Of a stretch of 64,000 bases of DNA, positions 17,233 through 49,109 are shown piece by piece. Source of the DNA: Candidatus Lindowbacteria bacterium RIFCSPLOWO2_12_FULL_62_27 (GTDB lineage: Bacteria > Lindowbacteria > 2-12-FULL-62-27); contig MFPR01000028.1 in NCBI GenBank assembly GCA_001784175.1, forward strand, positions 69,606 to 133,605. Direction: 5' to 3'. The notes below the pieces were generated by a model, which made no database searches, was not told the origin of the DNA, and saw only the letters and a list, made by a program, of their open reading frames with translations. The position numbers and the translations under genes are program-made. Each line of letters begins with the position of its first letter. Within the stretch, counting starts at the first letter, position 1.

Positions 17233-20200
17233 TCACGCGTCGTCGGCACCATCGTCCTGCCCCATCCGGTACTTGATGTCGTAATTCACGATGAAGTCCA
17301 GCTCCTCGTCCGTGAATCCGTAATGCTTCGCCAGAATACTGTCGATTTCGTCGATCACGGGCTTTGAAAGTAGAGCTTTTATTTCGTCATATTCGATTTT
17401 ATGCCCTTGGCTGGTATTGATCGTTTTACGTTTTGAGTTTGCAACAAGATCCTTCTGCAGTCGATTGTAGATTTTCCCCCACTGCGAAGTCTCCCATATG
17501 CGTGGGATTGGAGCCTCACGGAGCAGAACGTCGTTAATATGCTCGCAATCCGAGAAGACGGAATAAAACCAGTAGAACAGTGAAGAGTTTGCCAAGCAAG
17601 TTGCGAAACATGATGACTCTCTTGATACAAAACAGAGGGTTCTTCCGTGCGGGGGGGCGATTTGTTTGCCGTTTCTTTTGAAAAATGGCATACCCACGCA
17701 GGCTTTAACCCAATAACGACAGGCTTCCTGGTAGTACAAAAGATGGTCCGATTCGTTTTGCGTCAATCTCGACAAAACTTGTTCTTGCGTTCCGACCTTT
17801 TGGTGGATGACCTGTTCGAGATCGCTTCCTATTTTAGCAATCCGATGACCATCTTTACGAATGCCGTGCTGGGTCAAGGACAGGGTGGCCAGCGCGTGAT
17901 TGCGCTCTTCTGTATAGAACCGGCATACGCGGGAGCTCAGTATCACCGATTTTGGATCGACCGAAGAAAGTAATATCGATACGGGCATCTCCACGCCATC
18001 GAATACAGATTCTGGGCGACGCGGGAATGAAACTGTATAAAGACTACCGCGCTTCAGCAATATATTCTGTAATGAATCCATTCGTTCTGCAGAAAGCACC
18101 GTAAGCTGCACAATCAATCCGACGCGAGAAATGTTGTGACCGAGTTCTATCGAACGTTCACAGACATAAGAATAGAGATTCTTTGTTTCAAAGGTCTGAT
18201 AACTCTTTGGCAAAATAGAATAGGCAACCTTTGCAGGAGCATATACTACATACGGTGGATTCCCGATAATCACGTCGAACCCGCCGCCGCTCATGATCCC
18301 GTAGAACTCGGCGAACCAGTGGAACGGCAGATGCGATGAGCGCCATTTTTCGAGGAGTTTTGGTTTGTCCGCGTCGACACCGTATTCCTTGGCGAGCAGG
18401 TGATCGATTTCCGTTCGGAGTTTGTTCAGGCGTTTGCGGAGTTCGATTTTTGCGTCGGCGAATTTGGCGGCGTCCATGTCGTGCTCGGTCTGCATCTCAT
18501 GGAATTTCTTGAACGCGCGGTCCACAAGTTCCGCGTCCTCCTCGATGCGCCTGATTTGGTCGTGAAACAAACCCAGCGTGCCTTCTTCGGAGATTTTTAT
18601 CTGATCAAGCGTGGCGTACCCCACAAGCGTGTTGCCCGGGCGGATGTTGAAGTCGATGTCGGGGAGGGGCTCAATCTGGCGGTGGTCGTCGACTTGGGCC
18701 ACGAGTTTCAGGAACAGCCGCAGTTTGCAGATTTCGACGGCTTCCTCCATGATGTCCACGCCGTAGAGGTTGTTCACGACGATGGATTTCAGGATGTAGT
18801 ACCGGCGGTTGGGATGTTTGGCGACTTGTTCGAGCGTTTTCCGGAAGTCGGCGAACTTTTCCGGGCGGTGTTTTTCGCCGGATCGCACAAGGTCGTACAG
18901 AAAAGCCTGCATACGGTCGAGGCAGGCGTCGTAGAGCGGTTCAAGGATATTAAGCGAGGCGAACAAAAACGCGCCCGAGCCGCAGGTCGGGTCGAGCACC
19001 GACACGCGCTCGATGGCCTGCCAGAATGCGCGCAGGACTTCCGGCTCCTCGCAATTCTCAACGGCATCTTCGGCGAACTGGCAGATGTCGAGATTGTACG
19101 TGATGAGGTCGTTGATCGAATGGATGTCGCCCGACTTGAGCTTCACGCGGAGTTCTAAGCACCGATTTCTCCGCGCGACGTATTCGCGCCAAGTTTCAGT
19201 CGGCAGAGTCAGTTTCTTTCCGTCGGCGGCCAGATCGGCTTCACCGAGGTTGTAGCGGCGGTCGAACATTCGTTTTTTAGGGTCGCGCATTCCTTTTTGA
19301 ACGAAATCCGGCAGGGCCGACTCCGGAATGATTTTTCCCTTTTCGTCAATGACGCCCCGGCGGACCGGCTCGTAGATGTATCGGTCGGGATCGGCCGCCA
19401 ATAGTTTCCAGAGGACGCTTCCGGGTTTGAACGCGGCCGCGCATTTTTTCTCGGCGGCGTCGAACAGAAACGGGATGATCGTGTTTCGGGCGATGTATCC
19501 GGTGATGTCCTCCTTGGTATAGTAGGCGCCCATCTGTTTCTGATTGATATATTTTTCGAAGATGTATCCGAGCACGTCCGGATTGATCTCATTGTCGGCG
19601 CGGAGCGGGCGCTCGTCGAGGTGCCACTGGTATTGATCGAAAAAATTGAACAGCCGCTCGAACGCCTCATCGGGGATGTCGATGCCGGTGTGCGTTTTCT
19701 CCAGGTCGTGAACGTCGAAGAGGCCGCCGTTCAAGTAAGGAATTTCCCCGAGAAGCGCCTCGAAATCTTTCTGGCGCGCGCCGGGGGGTTTGCCCAATCC
19801 TTCATGAAACAGACGCATGAGGAAAAACCGGTAGAACGACAGAAACTTGCCCTTGCCCTTTTGCTCCTGAACTTTTGCCATTCGACTGCGCAGATAATTC
19901 GAATCGCCGTCGAGGTAGCCTTTCTTCTGGATGAAGTAAACGAACATGAGACGGTTGAGCATGAGCGACGCATACCAGTCGCGGTCGGATTCGGTCGGAA
20001 TGTTTTTGACGAATTTCAGAAAGGCCGCATGTTCTTCTTTGAAATGCTCGTAAAACCGTTTTGTGACCCGATCGACGTCGAATGCCTGCCGGACGCGGCC
20101 GGCCAACTGCGGCAGATTGACACGTTCTTCTTCGGCCAGTTCGACGGACAGTATTTGCAGTTTCTGGATCAGCGCATCTCCCGGCTGATCTCTGTGGTAG

Positions 20201-20553
20201 GTAGGCTCACGGCAGGCCAGAGGGCGATTCGGTTCGCGCTTGACCCACTGCCACGTCTGCATCGCTCTGTCGGAATCCGTGAAGATAATGATGTGCTCGT
20301 AGGCGGATTTGGTCACCTGGCGTTCAATCTTTCGTCGGACGGCGGAGTTCGGAAACGCCTTCGGGCTTGGCGCCTGGCACTCAAAAACCTGGAAGCCCCG
20401 CTTTTGGGCAACCGCCCGAAGCGCATGCGACTGACCGTCCACCGTGACGTCGATGCCGCCCTGATGTCGGTCCCATCCCAGTTCCTCGATGAACAATGCG
20501 CGAAAGTCGGCCGCTTTCAGGAATTCACGGATGCGGGACGGATTCGCGGGCAC
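17233..20553 (-). CDS. Eco57I-type N6-adenine methyltransferase (DISARM/BREX-like)
   Basis: A large (1106-residue) class I methyltransferase. SAM-binding motif I is VLDPTCGSGAFLFA near residue 519 and catalytic motif IV is FDVIIGNPPYVVYA near residue 762. A helical region specific to this group precedes them (MLNRLMFVYFIQKKGYLDGD, NEINPDVLGYIFEKYINQKQMGAYYTKEDI). The N-terminal 170 residues (FRALFIEELGWDRHQGGIDVTV...GFQVFECQA) are a separate domain, possibly nuclease-like, whose catalytic residues I cannot assign. The gene starts 3 bp after the helicase stop, so they form an operon. Related methylases mark self DNA in DISARM class 1 (DrmMI) and BREX (PglX) or act as type IIG enzymes; no drmABC or BREX genes are present here. 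Confidence 0.88.
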   Translation of the reverse strand: MPANPSRIREFLKAADFRALFIEELGWDRHQGGIDVTVDGQSHALRAVAQKRGFQVFECQAPSPKAFPNSAVRRKIERQVTKSAYEHIIIFTDSDRAMQTWQWVKREPNRPLACREPTYHRDQPGDALIQKLQILSVELAEEERVNLPQLAGRVRQAFDVDRVTKRFYEHFKEEHAAFLKFVKNIPTESDRDWYASLMLNRLMFVYFIQKKGYLDGDSNYLRSRMAKVQEQKGKGKFLSFYRFFLMRLFHEGLGKPPGARQKDFEALLGEIPYLNGGLFDVHDLEKTHTGIDIPDEAFERLFNFFDQYQWHLDERPLRADNEINPDVLGYIFEKYINQKQMGAYYTKEDITGYIARNTIIPFLFDAAEKKCAAAFKPGSVLWKLLAADPDRYIYEPVRRGVIDEKGKIIPESALPDFVQKGMRDPKKRMFDRRYNLGEADLAADGKKLTLPTETWREYVARRNRCLELRVKLKSGDIHSINDLITYNLDICQFAEDAVENCEEPEVLRAFWQAIERVSVLDPTCGSGAFLFASLNILEPLYDACLDRMQAFLYDLVRSGEKHRPEKFADFRKTLEQVAKHPNRRYYILKSIVVNNLYGVDIMEEAVEICKLRLFLKLVAQVDDHRQIEPLPDIDFNIRPGNTLVGYATLDQIKISEEGTLGLFHDQIRRIEEDAELVDRAFKKFHEMQTEHDMDAAKFADAKIELRKRLNKLRTEIDHLLAKEYGVDADKPKLLEKWRSSHLPFHWFAEFYGIMSGGGFDVIIGNPPYVVYAPAKVAYSILPKSYQTFETKNLYSYVCERSIELGHNISRVGLIVQLTVLSAERMDSLQNILLKRGSLYTVSFPRRPESVFDGVEMPVSILLSSVDPKSVILSSRVCRFYTEERNHALATLSLTQHGIRKDGHRIAKIGSDLEQVIHQKVGTQEQVLSRLTQNESDHLLYYQEACRYWVKACVGMPFFKRNGKQIAPPHGRTLCFVSRESSCFATCLANSSLFYWFYSVFSDCEHINDVLLREAPIPRIWETSQWGKIYNRLQKDLVANSKRKTINTSQGHKIEYDEIKALLSKPVIDEIDSILAKHYGFTDEELDFIVNYDIKYRMGQDDGADDA

Positions 20554-20556
20554 GGG

Positions 20557-23500
20557 TTACGGGGCCTTCCTGGTCAGTGATAGACCCATGGAGCAAATGA
20601 GTTGCGGCTCCTGGACATGCTCGGATTCCTCGACCACGCAAAGCCGTCCTTCTTCCCGCAGGTCCACGACCATCTCGGCCAACTGCTCATTCGAAATTCC
20701 GGCGCGCAGTTGGCGGTTAAGGGCGTCCACCGCGGTTTGCCGCAACGGATACCGATAGATGTCTTCGACGGCCTTGGACAATTGATCCGAGGAAAAAAGG
20801 GTCCCCTTGATTTGTTCGGCATAATGTTTGAGGCGGTCATAGGTGCGGAATCTGGCGCCGGCGGGTCGGCCGAGTTGTCCGCCCGCTGATGATGATTCCT
20901 CTTTCATAATCTGTTCGACCGCCTTATGGACAAGCTCGTGATGGTTCTCCTCGCGCGGCAGGGGCGTCGTGTCGGGCGCGCATTCCGCCGCCTTCAAAAT
21001 AGCGAACTGGGATTCTGTCACGCTGTTGCCGTTTCTATCCATCCACGCAAGCGCGTCGTTTCCCTCGCCTGTTCGCATATAAACCAGGGCGCCGTCCGGT
21101 TCTTTTTCCGTCGGCTTGAACGCGCGCGTCGCGTAGACCACGGGCGGCAAGTCGGGGATGGTTTTTTGAAGACGCGGATCGGCGGTGACGGCGTTTTTCC
21201 AGATTTGGTAGGCATAGGACGCCAGATCGACCTCGGAATCCGCATCGCCGTCGAGCGTCCCGGCCTTTTCCGTAAACAGGTCGCGGATGACCTTCGGATC
21301 CGGCTCGTCCTCAAAAAAACGCTCATCGGCGCCGACGACTTCGGCGTTTTCCTTGAGCCGCCTGCGGACGCGCTGGCGCAAACGGATGATTCGTTCCACG
21401 CCGTCGGCCGGCAGAAAAGAATAGCACAAAATATTTTCCGCTTTTTGTCCGATGCGGTCCACGCGGCCCGCGCGCTGGATGAGCCGGATGATCGCCCAGG
21501 GAAGATCGTAATTGACGACGATCGCGGCGTCCTGAAGATTTTGGCCTTCGCTCAAGACGTCGGTGGCGATCAGGACGCGCAGTTCGTCGTCGGGCCGGAC
21601 ACGGCCGCGCTTTAGGTTGCTTTCGGGACTGAACCGCCATGCGAGTGCGGTCGGATCGTCGTTGTCGCCTGTCACGCCGGCCGCGCCGGCCAACCCGCGC
21701 GCGCGAAGCCGGCCATCGAGATAAAGCACGGTATCGGCAAACTGGGTGAAGACAAGGACTTTTTCTTTTTGATGGTGCCCGCTCAACAATTTCCAGAGGG
21801 CGTCCAGTTTGGCGTCCTTGGCGGGGTCCCACTCGCCGCAGATTTTCAATACGTTGAGGAGCGCCTTGACGTCATCGCGCAATGCTGTGGAGAGATCGCC
21901 AGTGAAGAATTCAGATGGAAGCCACTTGAACCGGCGCTTGAGTGGGCCCGTATATTCAGCGTAAACATCGACCGCGCGCGCCTTGAAATCCGCGGCCGTC
22001 CGGAGAGTCGACGTTTGGGATTTGTTCCGGCGGGTTTCCGTTTCCTCGTCGTCCTGCTCAAGCAGATCGTCTTCATCGTCATCCGAGAAGCGCGTATCGA
22101 GGAGTTCCGCGTCCTGCGTGCCGATGGGGAGAGGCAAATTATTTTCGATGGCGTGGAGATAGACGCAGTTTCGGAGAATGTGCCGCTCGATGGACTGCAA
22201 AAATGCCTGACCGCTGCTCTCAAGGCGCTTGAAGAGATTTGTCCGGCAGAATCCCATCAGCCGCTTGCCGGCCTTGGAAAGATCATCCAGAGTCTTTTTT
22301 TCAGTGGGCGTTGGCGGAGACGGGGGCGAAGGAGCGATGTAGTTCGCGAGGCCGTAGCGAGGCACGGTCAGGCCATTGATGGCGCCGACGACGTTGTCGT
22401 CGTACAGGCGCGCGTATTGATCCGCCGAATCCTTGTCATTGATCTTGAACTTGACCGTCTTGGGCAGGCGGGTCGGGAAGTGGGAGCGAGTGCCGTCTTC
22501 AAACAAAAGATATGGCCGGGCGCTTTTCGGCCTGGGTTTGGCGCACTTGGGGCATGCGCCGTCCGTGGCGGCGATGGGTGATTTGCATGCCGCGCAGTCC
22601 ACGATGGCGTAATTCTCTTGAATGAAAGTCCGAGTCCGCCGGACCAGATAGAGCCGCATGAGTTCGCGCCAGTCGTCGGCGTAGTCGCTTTTCTCAAATG
22701 CGGAGAGCGACCGGACGGGGCATTGGTGTTTGCGGATAAATTCAATTTCGCCGATCGTTCGGAGAAGCTGTTCCGGCCGGATGCTCAATTCGTGATCGTC
22801 GGGAATGAACAGGCGCAACTGATTCGCCAGATCGAGATATGTCTTGTTGTAGGGCGTGGCCGACAGCAGAATGCACTTGCTGTCATTACCGGCGATGTAC
22901 TCCTGAATGGCGCGGTATCGTTTGCCTTCGCGATTGCGTAGGTTGTGGCTCTCGTCGATGATGACAAGCCGGTACCGGCGAAGATCAGGCAGTTCCCGGA
23001 TGGCGCGGCTTATCGAGAGAACTTTGGCGTGCAAGCGGTATTGATCCCGATGGTCCTCCCACATGGACACGAGATTTTTCGGACAGAGGATCAGGGTCTC
23101 CAGACCGAAATCATCCTCGAAGACGCGCGCGAGGGCCGTGGCCATGAGGGTTTTGCCGAGGCCGACGACGTCGCCGATCAGTACGCCACCGCGCTTGTTG
23201 ATGTGATGGGCGGCGATTTTCACGGCCGCCTTCTGGAACTCAAAAAGCCTGTTGCCGAAATCGGTCGGGATTCGAAATTCCGTGAGACCCGCCCGGGCCT
23301 CCTGGGAAAGATGATAGGCCATTTTGATATAGATGTGGTACGGGGGAATGAGGTCCTCTCGCGCCCAGCTTTCCTCGATGATCTGGACCAGCTCGTCGGA
23401 AATGTCGATGCACCTGTTGTCGTTCCAGCGATCCTCGAACCACTTGGACAATTTCTTGCAGGCGTCGTGGTCGAGCACGTCCACGTTCAGCTCGCCCTGC

Positions 23501-24009
23501 TTGGACAGTCCGGCCATGGTCAGGTTGCTGCTGCCGAGGTAGCTGACGATGGGGTTGATTGGGTCCGGCCGGAAGAGCAGATAGAGTTTGGCGTGAAGCG
23601 GATGACGGAGAAACAATTTGACGACAACTTTTTTGGATTTGATCTGTGCGGCCAGGCGGCGCAGGCCGGCTTCGTCCTCGTTTGTCGGGATGCCGATGGT
23701 CAACTGGTCGCGGAAATCCTGCGCCAGTTTTTTCTTGATTCGAAGGACCGTCTGATTGTCCAGTTGGGCGTCATCGTGCGCCAAAGTCATCAGAGTCCGC
23801 AATTCTTCCTGCGGGGGGCGCTGCATGCCGACCAATAACCGGCAACAATGGCCGTCGCCACCGGACCAGCGTTCGACGCGCCGGTCGAGTTGTTTCCAGC
23901 CGCGCAAATTGAAATAGCCGACGCAGAAGTCGGCGCGGTCGGTGATGTCGAGGGTCTGCTGTAAGGCCGTGATGAGGTGGTCGTCGATGTTGTCAAATAT
24001 TCTTGGCAT
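20557..24009 (-). CDS. SNF2-family helicase with N-terminal phospholipase D domain
   Basis: 1150 residues. The N-terminal 250 carry a PLD-type nuclease-like domain (VGYFNLRGWKQL, HPLHAKLYLLF as the HxK motif, GSSNLTMAG). Next comes an SF2/SNF2 motor with DVVGLGKT (Walker A), VIIDESHNLRN (box II), LLSATPYNK (III), a CxxC...CxxC zinc knuckle between the lobes, and motifs V-VI in LIATDVLSEGQNLQDA and RLIQRAGRVDRIGQ. The start at 24009 (MPRIFDNIDDH) fits where the PLD domain begins; the extra upstream frame to 24180 lies in the structured repeat. Paired with the methyltransferase it looks like a restriction-type anti-phage module similar to DISARM drmD-drmMI, but with the PLD function fused in. 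Confidence 0.9.
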   Translation of the reverse strand: MPRIFDNIDDHLITALQQTLDITDRADFCVGYFNLRGWKQLDRRVERWSGGDGHCCRLLVGMQRPPQEELRTLMTLAHDDAQLDNQTVLRIKKKLAQDFRDQLTIGIPTNEDEAGLRRLAAQIKSKKVVVKLFLRHPLHAKLYLLFRPDPINPIVSYLGSSNLTMAGLSKQGELNVDVLDHDACKKLSKWFEDRWNDNRCIDISDELVQIIEESWAREDLIPPYHIYIKMAYHLSQEARAGLTEFRIPTDFGNRLFEFQKAAVKIAAHHINKRGGVLIGDVVGLGKTLMATALARVFEDDFGLETLILCPKNLVSMWEDHRDQYRLHAKVLSISRAIRELPDLRRYRLVIIDESHNLRNREGKRYRAIQEYIAGNDSKCILLSATPYNKTYLDLANQLRLFIPDDHELSIRPEQLLRTIGEIEFIRKHQCPVRSLSAFEKSDYADDWRELMRLYLVRRTRTFIQENYAIVDCAACKSPIAATDGACPKCAKPRPKSARPYLLFEDGTRSHFPTRLPKTVKFKINDKDSADQYARLYDDNVVGAINGLTVPRYGLANYIAPSPPSPPTPTEKKTLDDLSKAGKRLMGFCRTNLFKRLESSGQAFLQSIERHILRNCVYLHAIENNLPLPIGTQDAELLDTRFSDDDEDDLLEQDDEETETRRNKSQTSTLRTAADFKARAVDVYAEYTGPLKRRFKWLPSEFFTGDLSTALRDDVKALLNVLKICGEWDPAKDAKLDALWKLLSGHHQKEKVLVFTQFADTVLYLDGRLRARGLAGAAGVTGDNDDPTALAWRFSPESNLKRGRVRPDDELRVLIATDVLSEGQNLQDAAIVVNYDLPWAIIRLIQRAGRVDRIGQKAENILCYSFLPADGVERIIRLRQRVRRRLKENAEVVGADERFFEDEPDPKVIRDLFTEKAGTLDGDADSEVDLASYAYQIWKNAVTADPRLQKTIPDLPPVVYATRAFKPTEKEPDGALVYMRTGEGNDALAWMDRNGNSVTESQFAILKAAECAPDTTPLPREENHHELVHKAVEQIMKEESSSAGGQLGRPAGARFRTYDRLKHYAEQIKGTLFSSDQLSKAVEDIYRYPLRQTAVDALNRQLRAGISNEQLAEMVVDLREEGRLCVVEESEHVQEPQLICSMGLSLTRKAP

Positions 24010-24117
24010 GGGCAGACGATAGCTTTGGCGGCGGGAGAGGGCAACGGTGAAAAATGCGGCTTGTGTTTTGAAGGTCGCCTGTATATTATCCGAATTGCGG
24101 CAGATTGCCGCGAAGTT

Positions 24118-24256
24118 GTCGACTGGGAACCATACAGCCTTCCTGCCTGGAGGGGAATGCTCTGTCCACGATGAATACACGTGGACGAGCGTCCTTTTTC
24201 GAACCCGTCCAGGCTTCCCAGTCGACGACGAAGTTCAGGGCGCTCGTCCTTTGCCC
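24118..24256 (+). ncRNA. Structured repeat element, copy A (three nested stems)
   Basis: Outer stem GTCGACTGGGAA/TTCCCAGTCGAC (24118-24129/24215-24226), middle stem GCCTGGA/TCCAGGC (24145-24151/24208-24214) and inner stem GTCCACG/CGTGGAC (24164-24170/24180-24186). Unpaired or flanking blocks TGCTCTG, GCGTCC, GAACCCGTC and CGACGAAGTTC are shared with copy B (45208-45342), whereas the stem sequences differ on both arms. A GGGC...GCCC hairpin follows just upstream of the ribosome-binding site of the gene at 24270. No known RNA family was recognised. Confidence 0.65.
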
Positions 24257-24269
24257 ATGGGGAACACAG

Positions 24270-24398
24270 ATGAAAATACCGGAGTGGATCCGATACGACC
24301 CAGAGGATCCGAAGCAGAGGCATGATGCGCGAATCGCGCTGGCGATTCTTGCCCTCGGCGCGGTGCTGGCGGTACTGCGGCAGTTCGGGTTGCTCTGA
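24270..24398 (+). CDS. Small single-span membrane protein
   Basis: A 42-residue peptide MKIPEWIRYDPEDPKQRHDA followed by one hydrophobic helix (RIALAILALGAVLAVLRQFG). A GGGGA motif sits 7 bp before the ATG, directly after the structured element. Its stop overlaps the next start (TGATG), so the two small genes are translationally coupled. Function unknown. Confidence 0.5.
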   Translation: MKIPEWIRYDPEDPKQRHDARIALAILALGAVLAVLRQFGLL

Positions 24399-24592
24399 TG
24401 GCGGAGTTTTGTCTCGCGTGCTATCTGTCGCAAATCAAGCCCGAGGATGTCGATACGGCGGCGGTGGCGCTGTCCGAGGGCGAGGAGCTTTGCGAGGGGT
24501 GCGGGGAGTTTAAGCAGATTGTCGAGACGGTGGCAGAGCCGGTCCCGAGAAGGCGGACATTTCGGGAGATATTCTTGCGGTGGAGGATTTAG
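24398..24592 (+). CDS. Small CxxC zinc-ribbon-like protein
   Basis: A 64-residue peptide with two cysteine pairs, FCLACYLSQ and LCEGCGEF, about 30 residues apart, a small zinc-ribbon layout, then a basic C-terminus (RRRTFREIFLRWRI). It starts in the TGATG overlap with the preceding small membrane protein gene. Function unknown; the pair may be one regulatory or structural unit under the upstream structured element. Confidence 0.5.
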   Translation: MAEFCLACYLSQIKPEDVDTAAVALSEGEELCEGCGEFKQIVETVAEPVPRRRTFREIFLRWRI

Positions 24593-28229: not shown

Positions 28230-29306
28230 TCAAAATGATTCATGAACCGATGGAGATGGCGACACGCTTGGCGTGACCAGGTAGCCGGCGATCGTTTTCG
28301 CGGCGGCGCCGGCCATGTCCTTTCGATTGTCGTCGTAACGGAGGATTGTGTCCATGTTTGTATGTCGAGCGAACCTCTGGGCCAAGCGAGGATCTTTGGT
28401 CACGTCCAACACGTGGGTGATCGCCGCATGACGGATTCCGTGCGGCCGTACTCTCATCCCGCATTTTGCCCCCAGTCCGCGAATCACGGCGTAAATCATG
28501 TCGTCGCTCATTCGGTTTCCAGAAAAGGCGCCGCGAGCCACGTTCGTGAACAGCGGGCCTGATCGGCGGTCACCCAACCATGCGCGGAGTGCTTGGATCG
28601 TTTCAGGCGGGAGACCGATCTTTTCCTTTTGAAGTCGCATTTTGCCGAGAACCCAAATGAACTCCCCTTCGAAATCGACATCCGAAACATCCAAACGCAC
28701 GACCTCGCCTCTGCGAAACCCCAAATCCCAGAGAACGCGAAGCAAGGCGACATCGCGTAGTCCCCTTGGTCCGGGTTGCCTGGCGGCTTCGTTGATCATC
28801 TTTTGCACGCCTTCAAGACCCGGGCCTCGCGTATCGCGAAGCGACAGGTAGGGAAGACGCCTGAGCGAAAATTTCCAGTTGAGGATCCCGGCCATGCAGG
28901 CAAAGGTCGAGAACTGCCGAATCGCGCTGATGTGGCCGTTGATGGTGCCGGACGAGCGCCCACTTTTCAGCAGATGATTTCGGAAATCTAAGAGCATGAC
29001 GTGCGCCTTCCCCGCCCCGACTCGGTAGAGAAGGCCGAGGAGTTCGGAAATCGTGCGTACGCCCACAAAGGCGCAAAACTGTCGCAGAGCGTTGGCATAT
29101 CCGCGCTGGGTGTTGGGCTGCAGATTGCCGAAAAAAGTTTCTGCGATTTTCCGCAACTCGTCTCTTGTCAGAGCCGTTTCCTGAAAAGCCGAACGCTTCA
29201 CCAGGCCAACCGCTTCATCCTCGATGTCAAACCCAAGGACGGCCTTGACTGGAGATACACGTCGTCGTTTCACACGGGATTCAACGCGGATCTGTTCGAT
29301 TTTCAT
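28230..29306 (-). CDS. Tyrosine integrase next to tRNA-Pro
   Basis: A 358-residue tyrosine recombinase. The SAM-like core-binding domain covers residues 45-150 (TFFGNLQPNTQRGYANALRQFC) and the catalytic domain carries LGFRRGEVVRLDVSD (Arg), GKMRLQKEKIGL (Lys region), RPHGIRHAAITH (His-x-x-Arg), RHTNMDTILRYDD (His and Tyr). It begins 90 bp from the tRNA-Pro 3' end and its start codon is inside the right-end 22-bp repeat, so binding of integrase there could regulate its own expression. It very likely catalysed the 46-bp att duplication. Confidence 0.93.
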   Translation of the reverse strand: MKIEQIRVESRVKRRRVSPVKAVLGFDIEDEAVGLVKRSAFQETALTRDELRKIAETFFGNLQPNTQRGYANALRQFCAFVGVRTISELLGLLYRVGAGKAHVMLLDFRNHLLKSGRSSGTINGHISAIRQFSTFACMAGILNWKFSLRRLPYLSLRDTRGPGLEGVQKMINEAARQPGPRGLRDVALLRVLWDLGFRRGEVVRLDVSDVDFEGEFIWVLGKMRLQKEKIGLPPETIQALRAWLGDRRSGPLFTNVARGAFSGNRMSDDMIYAVIRGLGAKCGMRVRPHGIRHAAITHVLDVTKDPRLAQRFARHTNMDTILRYDDNRKDMAGAAAKTIAGYLVTPSVSPSPSVHESF

Positions 29307-45092: not shown

Positions 45093-45207
45093 GAACACGA
45101 CGCGCCGTTTGACGGAGGGTGTGGCGGTTTCATGATTCGGATTTGTCTTGTATTTCGCCCGGAGATTTGTGAAAATCTGATTGTCACAGCTCTAGTCGTG
45201 ACGGTTT

Positions 45208-45342
45208 GTCGCCGAGCAAGCGATACCATATCGAACGCACAGACGGAACTGCTCTGCCTACAGTGTGGGCGGGGCGTCCGAAGTGGAACCCGTCTGTGCC
45301 TTGCTCGGCGACGACGAAGTTCTGGGCGTCCTGCCCTTTTTT
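45208..45342 (+). ncRNA. Structured repeat element, copy B (three nested stems)
   Basis: Outer stem GTCGCCGAGCAAG/CTTGCTCGGCGAC (45208-45220/45300-45312), middle stem GCACAGACGG/CCGTCTGTGC (45237-45246/45290-45299), inner stem GCCTAC/GTGGGC (45256-45261/45265-45270, one G-U pair). Spacing, stem order and the abutting 3' arms equal copy A, while the stems are different sequences. A GGGC-GTCCT-GCCC hairpin plus T6 (45324-45342) follows, immediately before the GGAGG of the gene at 45357, as an attenuator would. Confidence 0.65.
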
Positions 45343-45356
45343 ATGGAGGTAGAGAC

Positions 45357-45770
45357 ATGCCAAACATCGGCGCTCGACGGTATCATCGCGAAATTTCCGA
45401 GTTCCTAATTCGACAGAATCACCAAGAAATTGTGAATTATATAAAAGGCGCGACTTTTTCCAGAAATGCAACCGGGAAACAACGTAGGCTCTTTACCGGT
45501 GCAATTTCAATTTTAGGACTGAAAGACGTATTTTTAAGTGAAACAAGGCGTGGTTTACCCGATAACACAGAAAATATCGAATCCGAATTCACCCGCCTTT
45601 TAAACAGTTTCAACCATCCTTCAAGACTTGGCGACCCTAGACAATTCTCGGAGTGCAAACAGCATGTCGAGGATTACTGCAGGAAGACTAAATTTCAAAA
45701 GGATGATGGACCATCTGTGATAGGGCCTCTTAAAAGAGGAATTCCGTACAAGGTTACGATCATTTTTTGA
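45357..45770 (+). CDS. Hypothetical AT-rich gene
   Basis: A 137-residue polar protein I do not recognise (MPNIGARRYHREISEFLIRQNHQEIVNYIKG ... GPLKRGIPYKVTIIF). GGAGGT lies 6 bp before the ATG at 45357. The coding sequence is visibly more AT-rich than its neighbours, suggesting recent transfer. It is preceded by a structured repeat that may control it. The frame is open further upstream but that part is the repeat. Confidence 0.65.
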   Translation: MPNIGARRYHREISEFLIRQNHQEIVNYIKGATFSRNATGKQRRLFTGAISILGLKDVFLSETRRGLPDNTENIESEFTRLLNSFNHPSRLGDPRQFSECKQHVEDYCRKTKFQKDDGPSVIGPLKRGIPYKVTIIF

Positions 45771-45774
45771 CAAG

Positions 45775-47808
45775 ATGATGAATCGCAAACGAGCATTGAG
45801 CTTGGCGGCACTTATCATCATTATCTGCGTCGCTCTGGCCTATGCTTTCCTCACATCGACCAACAACCAGATCACCGAGCCGGTTCTCGATGGCGGCGGC
45901 GACACTCTCGCATCCGCCGGACACATCTTCCAGACCTCCGTCGGACAGGTCGGCGTGGATACGGCTTCGAGCGCCGGTTACGCGTTTCGACCCGGGCTGT
46001 TTTACATGCGGTTGGGAATTACGGCGTCGGCCACGCGAGGAGACTCCCTCATCGTCGTGAGCGGCAATCACCAGGTCATTGCCAACGGAGAAACAGCGAC
46101 GTTCGTGATTGACGTCAAGGATTCCGGCACATGCGGGCCGATCTCAAATGCCCGCGTTGATTTTATGGTCGAATACGAGGGAACCGCCGTCGGAACGACC
46201 GAGACTGCCGCGTCGGACGCCGCCGGGCGTGTCAGCAAATCGATTGTGCTTGCAAGCGGCGACGGGTTTTATCTCGTCACGGCCACGCCAGCCGCCGCGC
46301 CCAATCAAAAAACTCAACTGGCGGTCTACACCAACCAGCGCAAGATTCTGGTGAGCACGGATACGAATAAGAAATGGACGATGTTCGCGCCGTTTGCGAA
46401 ACCGGTGGCGGGGGTGAACGGGATCGGCGTAAACGGCGTGGCAGGGGTTGGCAGTCTCATCATTTACCGGTGGGACCCGAAGGCGACGCCCGACGCGGCA
46501 TTTCAACAATATCTGTCCGTTTCCGGCCAGGCATCGCCCAACAATTCGACCGTCGGGACATTCAGCGATTTTATCGCTGGCCGGGCGTATTTCGCGCTGT
46601 CCAAAGGTGCGGACGCGACCGTCGGCCTCTCCGCCGGCTCTACCGCGTCGGATTCGCCGTATCAGATTCTCGTTCATCCCGGCTGGAACATGATCGGCAA
46701 TCCGTTTCAACACTATATCGACTGGACGGTGGACGTGAGGCTCGACACCGATGCGTCGGACACGATGCTATCCAAATCCGTCCAGATGTCGAATCTCGAC
46801 GCGAACTCCTATCACACGAAAATCTACTGGCGAAAAGAATCAGCGGGCGGCGGGTATGTGTTCGGTCCGGCGACGGGGTCGATCAGCACGGCGCTGACGA
46901 CGTTCGACACGACGGTGCAGATGAAACCTTGGTCGGGATTCTGGATGAAGATCCCTGACGCCGCGCCGGGGTGCGCTACCGGATGCACACTGGCGTTTTA
47001 TCCAAACAAGCGTCTGCCGCAGACGACGAACGTGAAAATGCAGGCGCCCACGTATCGAGAGGGAACAGGAACAGTCGATCAATGGATCATTCCGTTAAAG
47101 GCGACCGGGCCGAACGGCGCCGTCGATGACTACAATTACGTGGGTGTGGCTCCGGGGGCAAGAGAGGGCCGCGACGGGTACGACGCGTACAAAGCGCCGG
47201 CGATCGGTGATTTTGTTCAGGTTGGCATCCGTGAATTGGCGGGAAATCCTCAATCCCCTTTACTGGCGGCGAGCTTGATTCCGCAAATTTCAACAACGGC
47301 GGCATGGGATGTGGTGGTGAGCGCCGGCGCCTCCTGGCCGGTGACGCTGGCGTGGGACGCGGGGGCAATACCGAATGATTACGGAGCGTATCTCATCGGG
47401 GGACCGGAGGGCGTGGTCGATCTTCGGAAGAAATCGTCGACGGTCGTGCAGTTGAACTCGGAGGCGACGTTGACCCTCGTTGTGAGAACTCCGGAATATT
47501 TATCGGCGTTTTTGTCGGCGCCCTTGTCGAAAGAAAATACGTTTGTCTATCCGAATCCCGGCCCGGACGCCTCCGGGAATATGACGTTCAAATACAATTT
47601 GCAAAGCGCGTCCGGCGTCAAACTCAAAATCTTCGACGTGGGTGGAAAGCCGGTGAAGGAACTGGCGCAGAGCGGGTCGGCAGGTTCAAACGGCCTGACG
47701 TGGGACACTACGAACAAGAACGGGCAGAAACTCGGAACAGGCGTTTACATTTACATTCTGGAATCCGGCGGGGTCAAACTCGTCGATAAATTGGCGATTA
47801 CAAGATGA
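45775..47808 (+). CDS. Large secreted surface protein with FlgD-like C-terminal domain
   Basis: 677 residues. An N-terminal hydrophobic segment ([20 protein letters not shown]) serves as signal or anchor. Next comes an Ig-like domain (residues 95-185, [32 protein letters not shown]), a central beta-rich part with [14 protein letters not shown], and a final 80 residues resembling the FlgD Ig-like / sorting-type module ([44 protein letters not shown]). Such domains end many extracellular proteins of Gram-negative phyla. Function unknown. It overlaps the frame of the next gene only outside that gene's real start. Confidence 0.8.
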
Positions 47809-47870
47809 GTGTCTTCGTCGCTGCGTTGCGGCATTGCTGTATTGAACCGTTCCGGGGAGGTCGATGTAAG

Positions 47871-49109
47871 ATGAAAAAGTCGGCATTGAGGTTTCGATTC
47901 TTGTTGGTTTTATTGTTCAGCATCTGCGCGGCTGACGCTGAAGCGGACGTGCCCAAATTCATTTCATTTCAAGGCGAGTTGACCGACTCGCAGGGCACGC
48001 GGATCACGAGCGCCAGGACAGTGACGTTGAAAATATACAACACGGCAACCGGCGGAAGTTTTCTGTGGTCGGAAGTACAGACGGTGACTCCCGCCAACGG
48101 CATCGTGAGCGCCATCCTCGGGAGCCAAACAAGCGGCGGCGTGAATCTGGCCTTCGACACCCAATACTGGCTCGGCGTGACCGTCTCCCCGGACGGCGAA
48201 ATGTCACCGCGTATTCGTTTGACGACCTCCCCCTACGCATTCATCGCCAAGTTCCTCGACACAGGCGCGCAAGCCTACGGTTCGCTCTCGGTGGCCAACA
48301 CAGTCACAGCAAGCAATTTTGTCGGCAACGGGTCGGGCCTGACCGGCATCACACCGGGACCCAAGGGCGACACCGGACCGAAGGGTGATACGGGTGCGGC
48401 AGGTGCGACGGGTCCGCAAGGACCGCAGGGACTCACGGGCGACACCGGATCGAAGGGTGACACAGGTGCGATGGGCGCGGCGGGTCCGCAGGGTACCAAA
48501 GGCGACACCGGATCGAAGGGCGATACGGGCGCGGTAGGTGCGACTGGAGCGCAAGGGCCGCAGGGACTCACAGGAGACACGGGACCGAAGGGTGATACCG
48601 GGTCCTCTCCATTCACGCTGAACGGGGCGAACGCTTATTACACGGCCGGCAATGTCGGCATTGGGGATACAAGTCCTGGCGGGAAGTTGGTTGTGAAGGG
48701 CAATCTCATGATCCGGGACACGATGACGGTGGGAGATACGTTTTGGGTTGTGAAGGAAAACGGTTATGTCGGCATCGGGACTACGTCTCCAAATGCAAGA
48801 TTGGATGTTGCAGGCGGAATCAAACTTGGGAGCGAGACAATATGTGATACTCCTCATGCAGGAATCCTCAGATACAATTCAAGCACAAAATCCGTTGAGT
48901 ATTGCAACGCTAACGCGTGGGGTGCGCTTTATGGTAACGGTTCCGTCCCCTCCGGCACATGGTGCGGATTTTACAATCCGCGTAATAGCACTTTGTATGC
49001 TTATTGCCAAGGATTGGACCCGAACACCTCATGTCCCACCGGCTACACAAGGATAGGCAGTCCTGACAGCAATGGATATACGATTATCATAACTTGCGTC
49101 AAAGATTGA
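47871..49109 (+). CDS. Secreted collagen-like repeat protein
   Basis: 412 residues. Signal peptide [19 protein letters not shown], then a beta-rich domain common before such repeats ([43 protein letters not shown]), a run of about 28 uninterrupted Gly-X-Y triplets rich in GDT, GAT and GPQ (48358-48602), then pseudo-repeats with NVGIGDTSP and [18 protein letters not shown], a motif seen in phage-tail-like and surface proteins. The C-terminal 90 residues contain paired cysteines. The start at 47871 has GGAGG upstream. Probably a cell-surface fibre. Confidence 0.82.

Follow-up and report, generated by a model that had tools for sequence, protein, structure and literature searches.

Leader-peptide attenuators of the trp and his type are built from three mutually exclusive helices, the final one a terminator hairpin. 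The c-di-GMP-I (GEMM, RF01051) RNA Bc2 precedes the collagen adhesion gene cap in Bacillus thuringiensis and is reported to be an 'on' switch that works by anti-termination (PMC4933901). For guanidine-IV (GGAM-1) the criteria were conserved bases, a pseudoknot, a terminator and several non-homologous downstream genes (PMC7736828). According to a study from 2026, expression platforms are so diverse that it is usually difficult to demonstrate covariation in them (PMC13273304).

The leader described here occurs twice in the window, the whole stretch of 64,000 nucleotides that was analysed, which comes from a 4.39 Mb Candidatus Lindowbacteria genome (G000). We read it as a putative cis-acting mRNA 5' leader that acts as a transcription attenuator, with a probability of roughly 70%. 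Like the trp and his attenuators it has three mutually exclusive helices with the terminator hairpin last; unlike them, it has its competing strand in a hairpin that is itself enclosed by two long stems. On reading through the leaders and the lists of ORFs we noticed no conserved short ORF inside the element, over P3 or elsewhere, that carries a ribosome-binding site (RBS) of its own. As in the c-di-GMP-I adhesin leaders, a predicted terminator/anti-terminator RNA lies directly before a surface adhesion gene, but the Lindowbacteria element has no RF01051 match. A genome-wide search with RF01051 also gave no matches, but the controls were equally silent, so absence is not proven. As the Lindowbacteria genomes hold 12-15 GGDEF-domain matches, c-di-GMP signalling is available, though nothing ties it to the leader. 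With guanidine-IV the leader shares pseudoknot or loop contacts, combined with a terminator stem and U-run, and a position upstream of non-homologous genes, but the structure is different, as here long, sequence-variable stems (P1 and P2) carry the switching hairpin. In contrast to the platforms of the 2026 study, the expression platform of this leader is itself conserved. The leader is an RNA family new to Rfam, but of a known kind, the leader-RNA attenuator, and is perhaps an orphan riboswitch.

The first-pass annotation had proposed an undescribed element of three nested stems, present at 24118-24256 and again at 45208-45342, the copies sharing conserved blocks (TGCTCTG, GCGTCC and others), differing by compensatory changes and ending just before a ribosome-binding site. 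Both copies are present, with the blocks as quoted. All four changed P1 pairs and all three changed P2 pairs between the copies are double-sided with pairing kept, and in each copy a Shine-Dalgarno-like sequence and an ATG follow only a few bases after the end. The stems stand as described, but the element is longer than noted, with a fourth hairpin, P0, and a promoter-like sequence at a fixed distance. At the 3' end, the position before the RBS was correct, but a terminator-like hairpin (T) that competes with P3, and an alternative pairing (r:T), had been overlooked, although these two features say most about function. The copy number of two was too low, as a covariance model and genome search found further homologues with covariation, giving at least nine in total. 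The element is indeed unlisted in Rfam 15, which gave no match at the gathering threshold over the whole window; and, with relaxed settings, copy 1 matched nothing up to E 10, copy 2 gave only a chance McaS score (E 2.6) and the other leader loci returned tRNAs only.

At least nine leader copies are known, all in two Candidatus Lindowbacteria genomes, that of the window and that of Candidatus Lindowbacteria bacterium nzgw232 (G001), which we take to represent two related genera. The window genome carries copies 1 and 2 (c1 and c2), c3 (L006), C11 (L080) and C26 (L081), and nzgw232 carries g1 (L082), gC3 (L079), C124 (L116) and C89 (L117). BLAST and a pattern search identified a third copy on the window's contig and one more in the second genome. 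A covariance model trained on four copies (R1) and run over 290 genomes then identified three further, untrained copies (E 7e-33, 2e-27 and 4e-12), and a model trained on seven copies (R2) identified another two (E 8e-9 and 1e-5). A weak R1 match in an unrelated genome (E 0.0055) was not accepted, and weak R2 matches at G000:C28:331799 and G001:C337 were dropped, as they read like protein-coding sequence. The model search found no copy in a third Lindowbacteria genome (81% complete) and no convincing copy in 287 other genomes, and the element was absent from the phage and plasmid BLAST collections. Viral contigs held 56 exact GAACCCGTC..ACGAAGTTC matches, none embedded in the element on inspection, and one P3-pattern match with weak model scores. 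A P3-pattern scan of genome contigs returned 20 loci, among which the two from nzgw232 are the only members; the others had E-values of 0.05 or worse, had no reported match or were unconvincing by inspection. In bacterium isolate AUK090 an apparently intergenic P3-like hairpin, GCTCTGCC..GGGGCGGGGCGTCC, lies directly before a gene (L085 6020-6065, reverse strand); its model match is unconvincing and it is probably a chance occurrence. As the family is carried by two genomes, every statistic given here is computed from nine sequences, of which several are related by descent.

Copy 1 is matched by the covariance model at 24094..24254 on the forward strand, with 115.4 bits under R1, of which it is a training member, and 115.7 bits under R2. 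A promoter-like sequence, TTGTGT - 17 bp - TATTAT (24061..24089), precedes it in the arrangement seen in all nine copies. The P0 hairpin, TGCGGC/GCCGCG (24096..24112), is compensated in copy 2. P1 (24118-24129/24215-24226) has Watson-Crick pairs at 12 of 12 positions and is followed by a hinge that starts CCATA (24130..24144), by P2 (24145-24151, continued at 24152-24155, with 24204-24214), which has one bulge, and by P3 (24158-24170/24180-24190), whose 5' strand holds TGCTCTG. On the 3' side P2 and P1 adjoin without a gap (24204..24226). Strand r, the P3 3' strand plus GCGTCC (24183..24194), is complementary at 12 of 12 positions to T (24238-24249), at -23.8 kcal/mol for the cognate pair against -8.4 with shuffled T, and a GAAC at 24201..24204, complementary to the GTTC at 24233-24236, would lengthen this helix. 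The T hairpin, GGGCG..CGTCC, runs into a short U-run, TTT (24238..24252 together). Downstream we read an RBS-like GGGG and a 42-codon ORF (24259..24398, ATG at 24270) with a membrane-helix-like tail and no Pfam match, overlapped by a 64-codon ORF at 24398-24592; copy 1 precedes these two small ORFs only. With its U-run reading UUUG, copy 1 looks partly decayed. Divergent from it, at 17233-24012 on the reverse strand, are an HKD/Snf2-like helicase and a type IIG restriction-methylation enzyme (1028 bits), which are likely to be a defence pair.

Copy 2, also on the forward strand, extends from P0 through the hinge to T at 45183..45341 (145.8 bits under R2), behind a promoter-like TTGTAT - 17 bp - GAAAAT (45148..45176). 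Its stems are P0 (45183-45202), P1 (45208-45220/45300-45312), P2 (45237-45246/45290-45299) and P3 (45251-45259/45267-45275). Strand r, GGGCGGGGCGTCC (45267..45279), is complementary to T at 13 of 13 positions, at -26.4 kcal/mol. The T hairpin, GGGCGTCCTGCCC (45324-45336), is followed by TTTTTT (45324..45342 together) and is also found by a terminator scan. An RBS, GGAGG, and a first ORF of 137 aa without a family (45345..45770, ATG at 45357) lead into the rest of a likely operon (45775..49109), encoding a 677-aa surface protein and a collagen-like/adhesive-trimer-like protein (47805-49109).

The leader segments were cut by hand and then checked against the sequences. The order is the same in all nine copies: promoter-like sequence, P0, P1, one-sided hinge, P2, P3, T hairpin, RBS and ORF. 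In each, the promoter-like TTGNNN-17-N6 ends 4-7 bases before P0, a GC-rich 5' hairpin. P1 is 11-13 bp long and P2 about 11 bp, with one bulge in copy 1 and C124; the hinge is a bulge of 13-42 nt on the 5' strand only, with a (C/G)ATA-like start in most of the nine. P3 is followed by a short block and then by the P2 and P1 3' strands, 0-4 bases apart, and a linker of 6-13 bases leads from P1 to T. The T hairpin, of at least 4 bp, is kept in all nine copies and is weak in some (-2.9 to -7.1 kcal/mol); a U-run of at least five follows it in seven, and is poor in copy 1 and C89. A Shine-Dalgarno-like RBS and an ORF lie within about 10-35 bases of T throughout. The minimum-energy folds of the nine copies show the helices, with z from -4.5 to -8.6 against dinucleotide shuffles (-6.2 for each of the window copies). 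The unpaired bases (GACGAA and loop bases) are conserved in six of the nine but eroded in C26, C124 and C89, which argues against one invariant ligand pocket. In C124 and C89 (L116 and L117) the 5' arm of T could also pair just past the U-run (GGGCGTCC..GGACGCCC; GTTCCCG..CGGGAAC), which would form a fourth helix near the RBS.

The stems covary. In a model-fitted alignment of the nine copies 95.8% of cells are paired and 24 of the 45 pairs are altered on both sides, a number equalled in 0 of 500 shuffles. Pairing falls to 41-51% once the partner is shifted by 1-3 columns. As a model-fitted alignment is biased toward the structure, a plain MAFFT alignment of seven copies was used as a check; it gave 91.3% paired and 16 double-changed pairs, again unmatched in 500 shuffles. 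All 113 P1 pairs in the nine copies are Watson-Crick, with no G-U, and at orthologous loci every changed P1 pair is double-sided (4/4 for c2/gC3, 3/3 for c3/g1 and 9/9 for C26/C124). P3 and r:T, on the other hand, hold conserved G-U pairs. The lack of G-U in P1, together with exclusively double-sided changes in the compared pairs, is odd for an RNA stem that changes one mutation at a time. It might hint at some process, acting on the DNA itself, by which a perfect inverted repeat is maintained.

Strand r (the P3 3' strand plus GCGUCC) is complementary to the whole of T over 12-15 bases in all nine copies. This complementarity was first spotted by eye and then tested, with r and T segmented by hand. 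Pairing is 12/12 in copy 1 and C124, each one base shorter on both r and T, and 13/13 in five others; C26 pairs at 13/14 positions, and C89 at 15 with an A bulged out. The pair listing omits this A and the bulged base of C124 P2. The energies of r:T are -22 to -26 kcal/mol, whereas shuffled versions of T average -8 to -15 and the T hairpin alone has -3 to -7. Shuffles match the cognate energy in a fraction of 0.008 for C26 and of no more than 0.002 for the other copies. Among the five divergent r/T types, joining each r to its own T is the best of the 120 permutations. The T loop reads UCC, UCU or CUU, pyrimidines only, so that G-C or G-U pairing with r is preserved. As about a fifth of the r:T pairs (21/103) are G-U, the constraint on this helix acts on RNA. 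On the MAFFT alignment alone support for r:T is modest, because C26 is misregistered there: four pairs are double-changed (1 of 500 shuffles as high) and the covariation score is reached by 16 of 500. In the core copies GGAAC:GUUCU lengthens the helix, while in C26 and C89 this extension is weak or absent. The extension covaries, reading GGAAAC/GUUUC in C11 and GAGUCC/GGACUU in C124, and the GAAC/GTTC entry is paired in 82.9% of cells (seven copies). In all nine copies r:T ends exactly at the U-run boundary. The T hairpin of C26 shows A-U compensation, and its outer 5' arm falls outside r:T. As read from the sequences, P3, the T hairpin and r:T are mutually exclusive, the layout that marks transcription attenuators and riboswitches.

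While the anatomy, covariation, exclusiveness of the helices and arrangement of promoter and ORF come from sequence, we infer from them how the leader may work. Transcription would start at the conserved promoter, just before P0, and the nascent RNA would fold P1, P2 and P3. T could then form flush with the U-run and stop RNA polymerase ahead of the RBS; alternatively, r would pair with the whole of T, often lengthened by the GGAAC:GUUCU extension. We lean towards T as the terminator and r:T as the read-through state, since the arms of T are preserved even in a copy, C26, in which r:T skips them. With P1 and P2 closed, r:T would be a pseudoknot, and on geometric grounds the linker of 6-7 bases after P1 could span it only if P2 (about 11 bp) folded back along P1 (about 13 bp) at the hinge. 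The need for this bend would couple r:T to a conformation open to stabilisation by a ligand or protein, and the trigger would come from outside the RNA. A more specific and tentative version, to which we give less credence than to the general one, is a new class of ligand-sensing riboswitch, in which binding, possibly of a second messenger, bends P2 onto P1 and the pseudoknot between tail and r cancels the terminator, controlling adhesin and partner-switching operons.

The logic could be the reverse, with r:T the true terminator stem, P3 an anti-terminator that hides r, and the T hairpin secondary. In general, a duplex that forms immediately before a U-run can take the place of a terminator hairpin, and r:T is far stronger than T and lies flush with the U-run in every copy. 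Yet T is self-complementary in all nine, in C26 with arm bases outside r:T, and r:T requires a pseudoknot across P1 and P2. We consider the reversed roles rather unlikely.

Judging by its position, the leader probably controls the gene just downstream. c3 and g1 precede a REC response regulator (with a PF00072 match for that of c3), followed in the c3 operon by STAS-like and HATPase-like ORFs and at g1 by a HATPase-like ORF, all identified by reading. c2 and gC3 precede small first ORFs, then a surface protein 82% identical between the two loci, then adhesive-trimer-like proteins; the surface protein at gC3, with its leader copy upstream, has a T9SS-type C-terminal match. The first ORFs at these two loci (window 45357-45770 and L079 2690-3273) are unrelated though the leader and surface-protein gene are kept in two genera, as if the slot after the leader had been exchanged. 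C26 and C124 lie directly upstream of GIY-YIG-like ORFs (by reading; L081 5489-6205 and L116 464-1015, both on the reverse strand) that are 70% identical to each other, the L081 protein having no Pfam match; at C26 an adhesive-trimer protein and a T9SS-tail protein follow. C11 precedes an ORF without an assigned family and then a beta-helix surface protein, and C89 two ORFs and then an adhesive-trimer-like protein (by reading). Most of the first ORFs were not assigned to any family by searches of Pfam and NCBIfam. Three leaders occupy loci common to the two genera (c2/gC3, c3/g1 and C26/C124), and it is clear that the promoter was copied together with the leader to sites in front of unrelated genes. 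The output is likely to be surface-adhesin operons and one REC-STAS-HATPase signalling operon. With 28, 15 and 13 surface-protein family matches in the three genomes, most members of the family have no leader. Tyrosine recombinase genes lie within about 4 kb of copy 1 (window 28230-29306, reverse strand) and within 2 kb of C26 (L081 8057-9046, reverse strand; the latter by reading).

The diversity of these downstream genes would suit a stand-alone small RNA of roughly 160 nt, acting in trans or on a protein, with r:T part of a mature pseudoknot and the ORF incidental or reached by leaky read-through. The complete transcription-unit anatomy fits such an RNA, and P0 and T would shield its ends. 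However, an independent small RNA gene has no need of the RBS and ORF that follow T so closely in all nine copies, and three leaders have both their loci and their downstream genes in common between two genera. An independent small RNA therefore seems improbable to us, and a cis-acting attenuator fits better.

Of the two roles offered by the first-pass annotation, riboregulator or mobile structured element, the first has gained ground, as the homologues covary and promoter, leader, terminator and ORF are alike in all nine copies. The second has lost it, with three leaders at loci of two genera, no ends or target-site duplications seen and r:T rich in G-U. A site for recombination or mobility that acts as structured single-stranded DNA, of the integron attC or REP-like kind, would share with attC folded stems of variable sequence and conserved structure, and could account for P1 with its 0/113 G-U pairs and purely double-sided changes, as well as for the recombinase genes near copy 1 and C26. 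Unlike attC, though, the element sits at the 5' end of a gene with a promoter; the RBS and U-run are conserved as well, and P3 and r:T keep their G-U pairs. No attC core sites (RYYYAAC / GTTRRRY) were recognised by eye at the element ends and no repeats were noticed, nor was the element in the phage and plasmid collections searched. We regard a DNA site as very improbable. Chance resemblance of two hairpins, common as these are in a GC-rich region, can be set aside in view of untrained-copy E-values down to 7e-33, nine copies and the fold z-scores.

The putative attenuator leader thus represents an RNA regulator family without an Rfam counterpart, so far confined to one candidate phylum, with covariation backing both its sensor-like body and its switching helix. 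It provides an ordered, testable regulon of adhesins and a signalling operon in a little-known group of organisms. Its switch geometry may also be new, with the strand on which termination depends forming part of a hairpin borne on two long, freely evolving stems.
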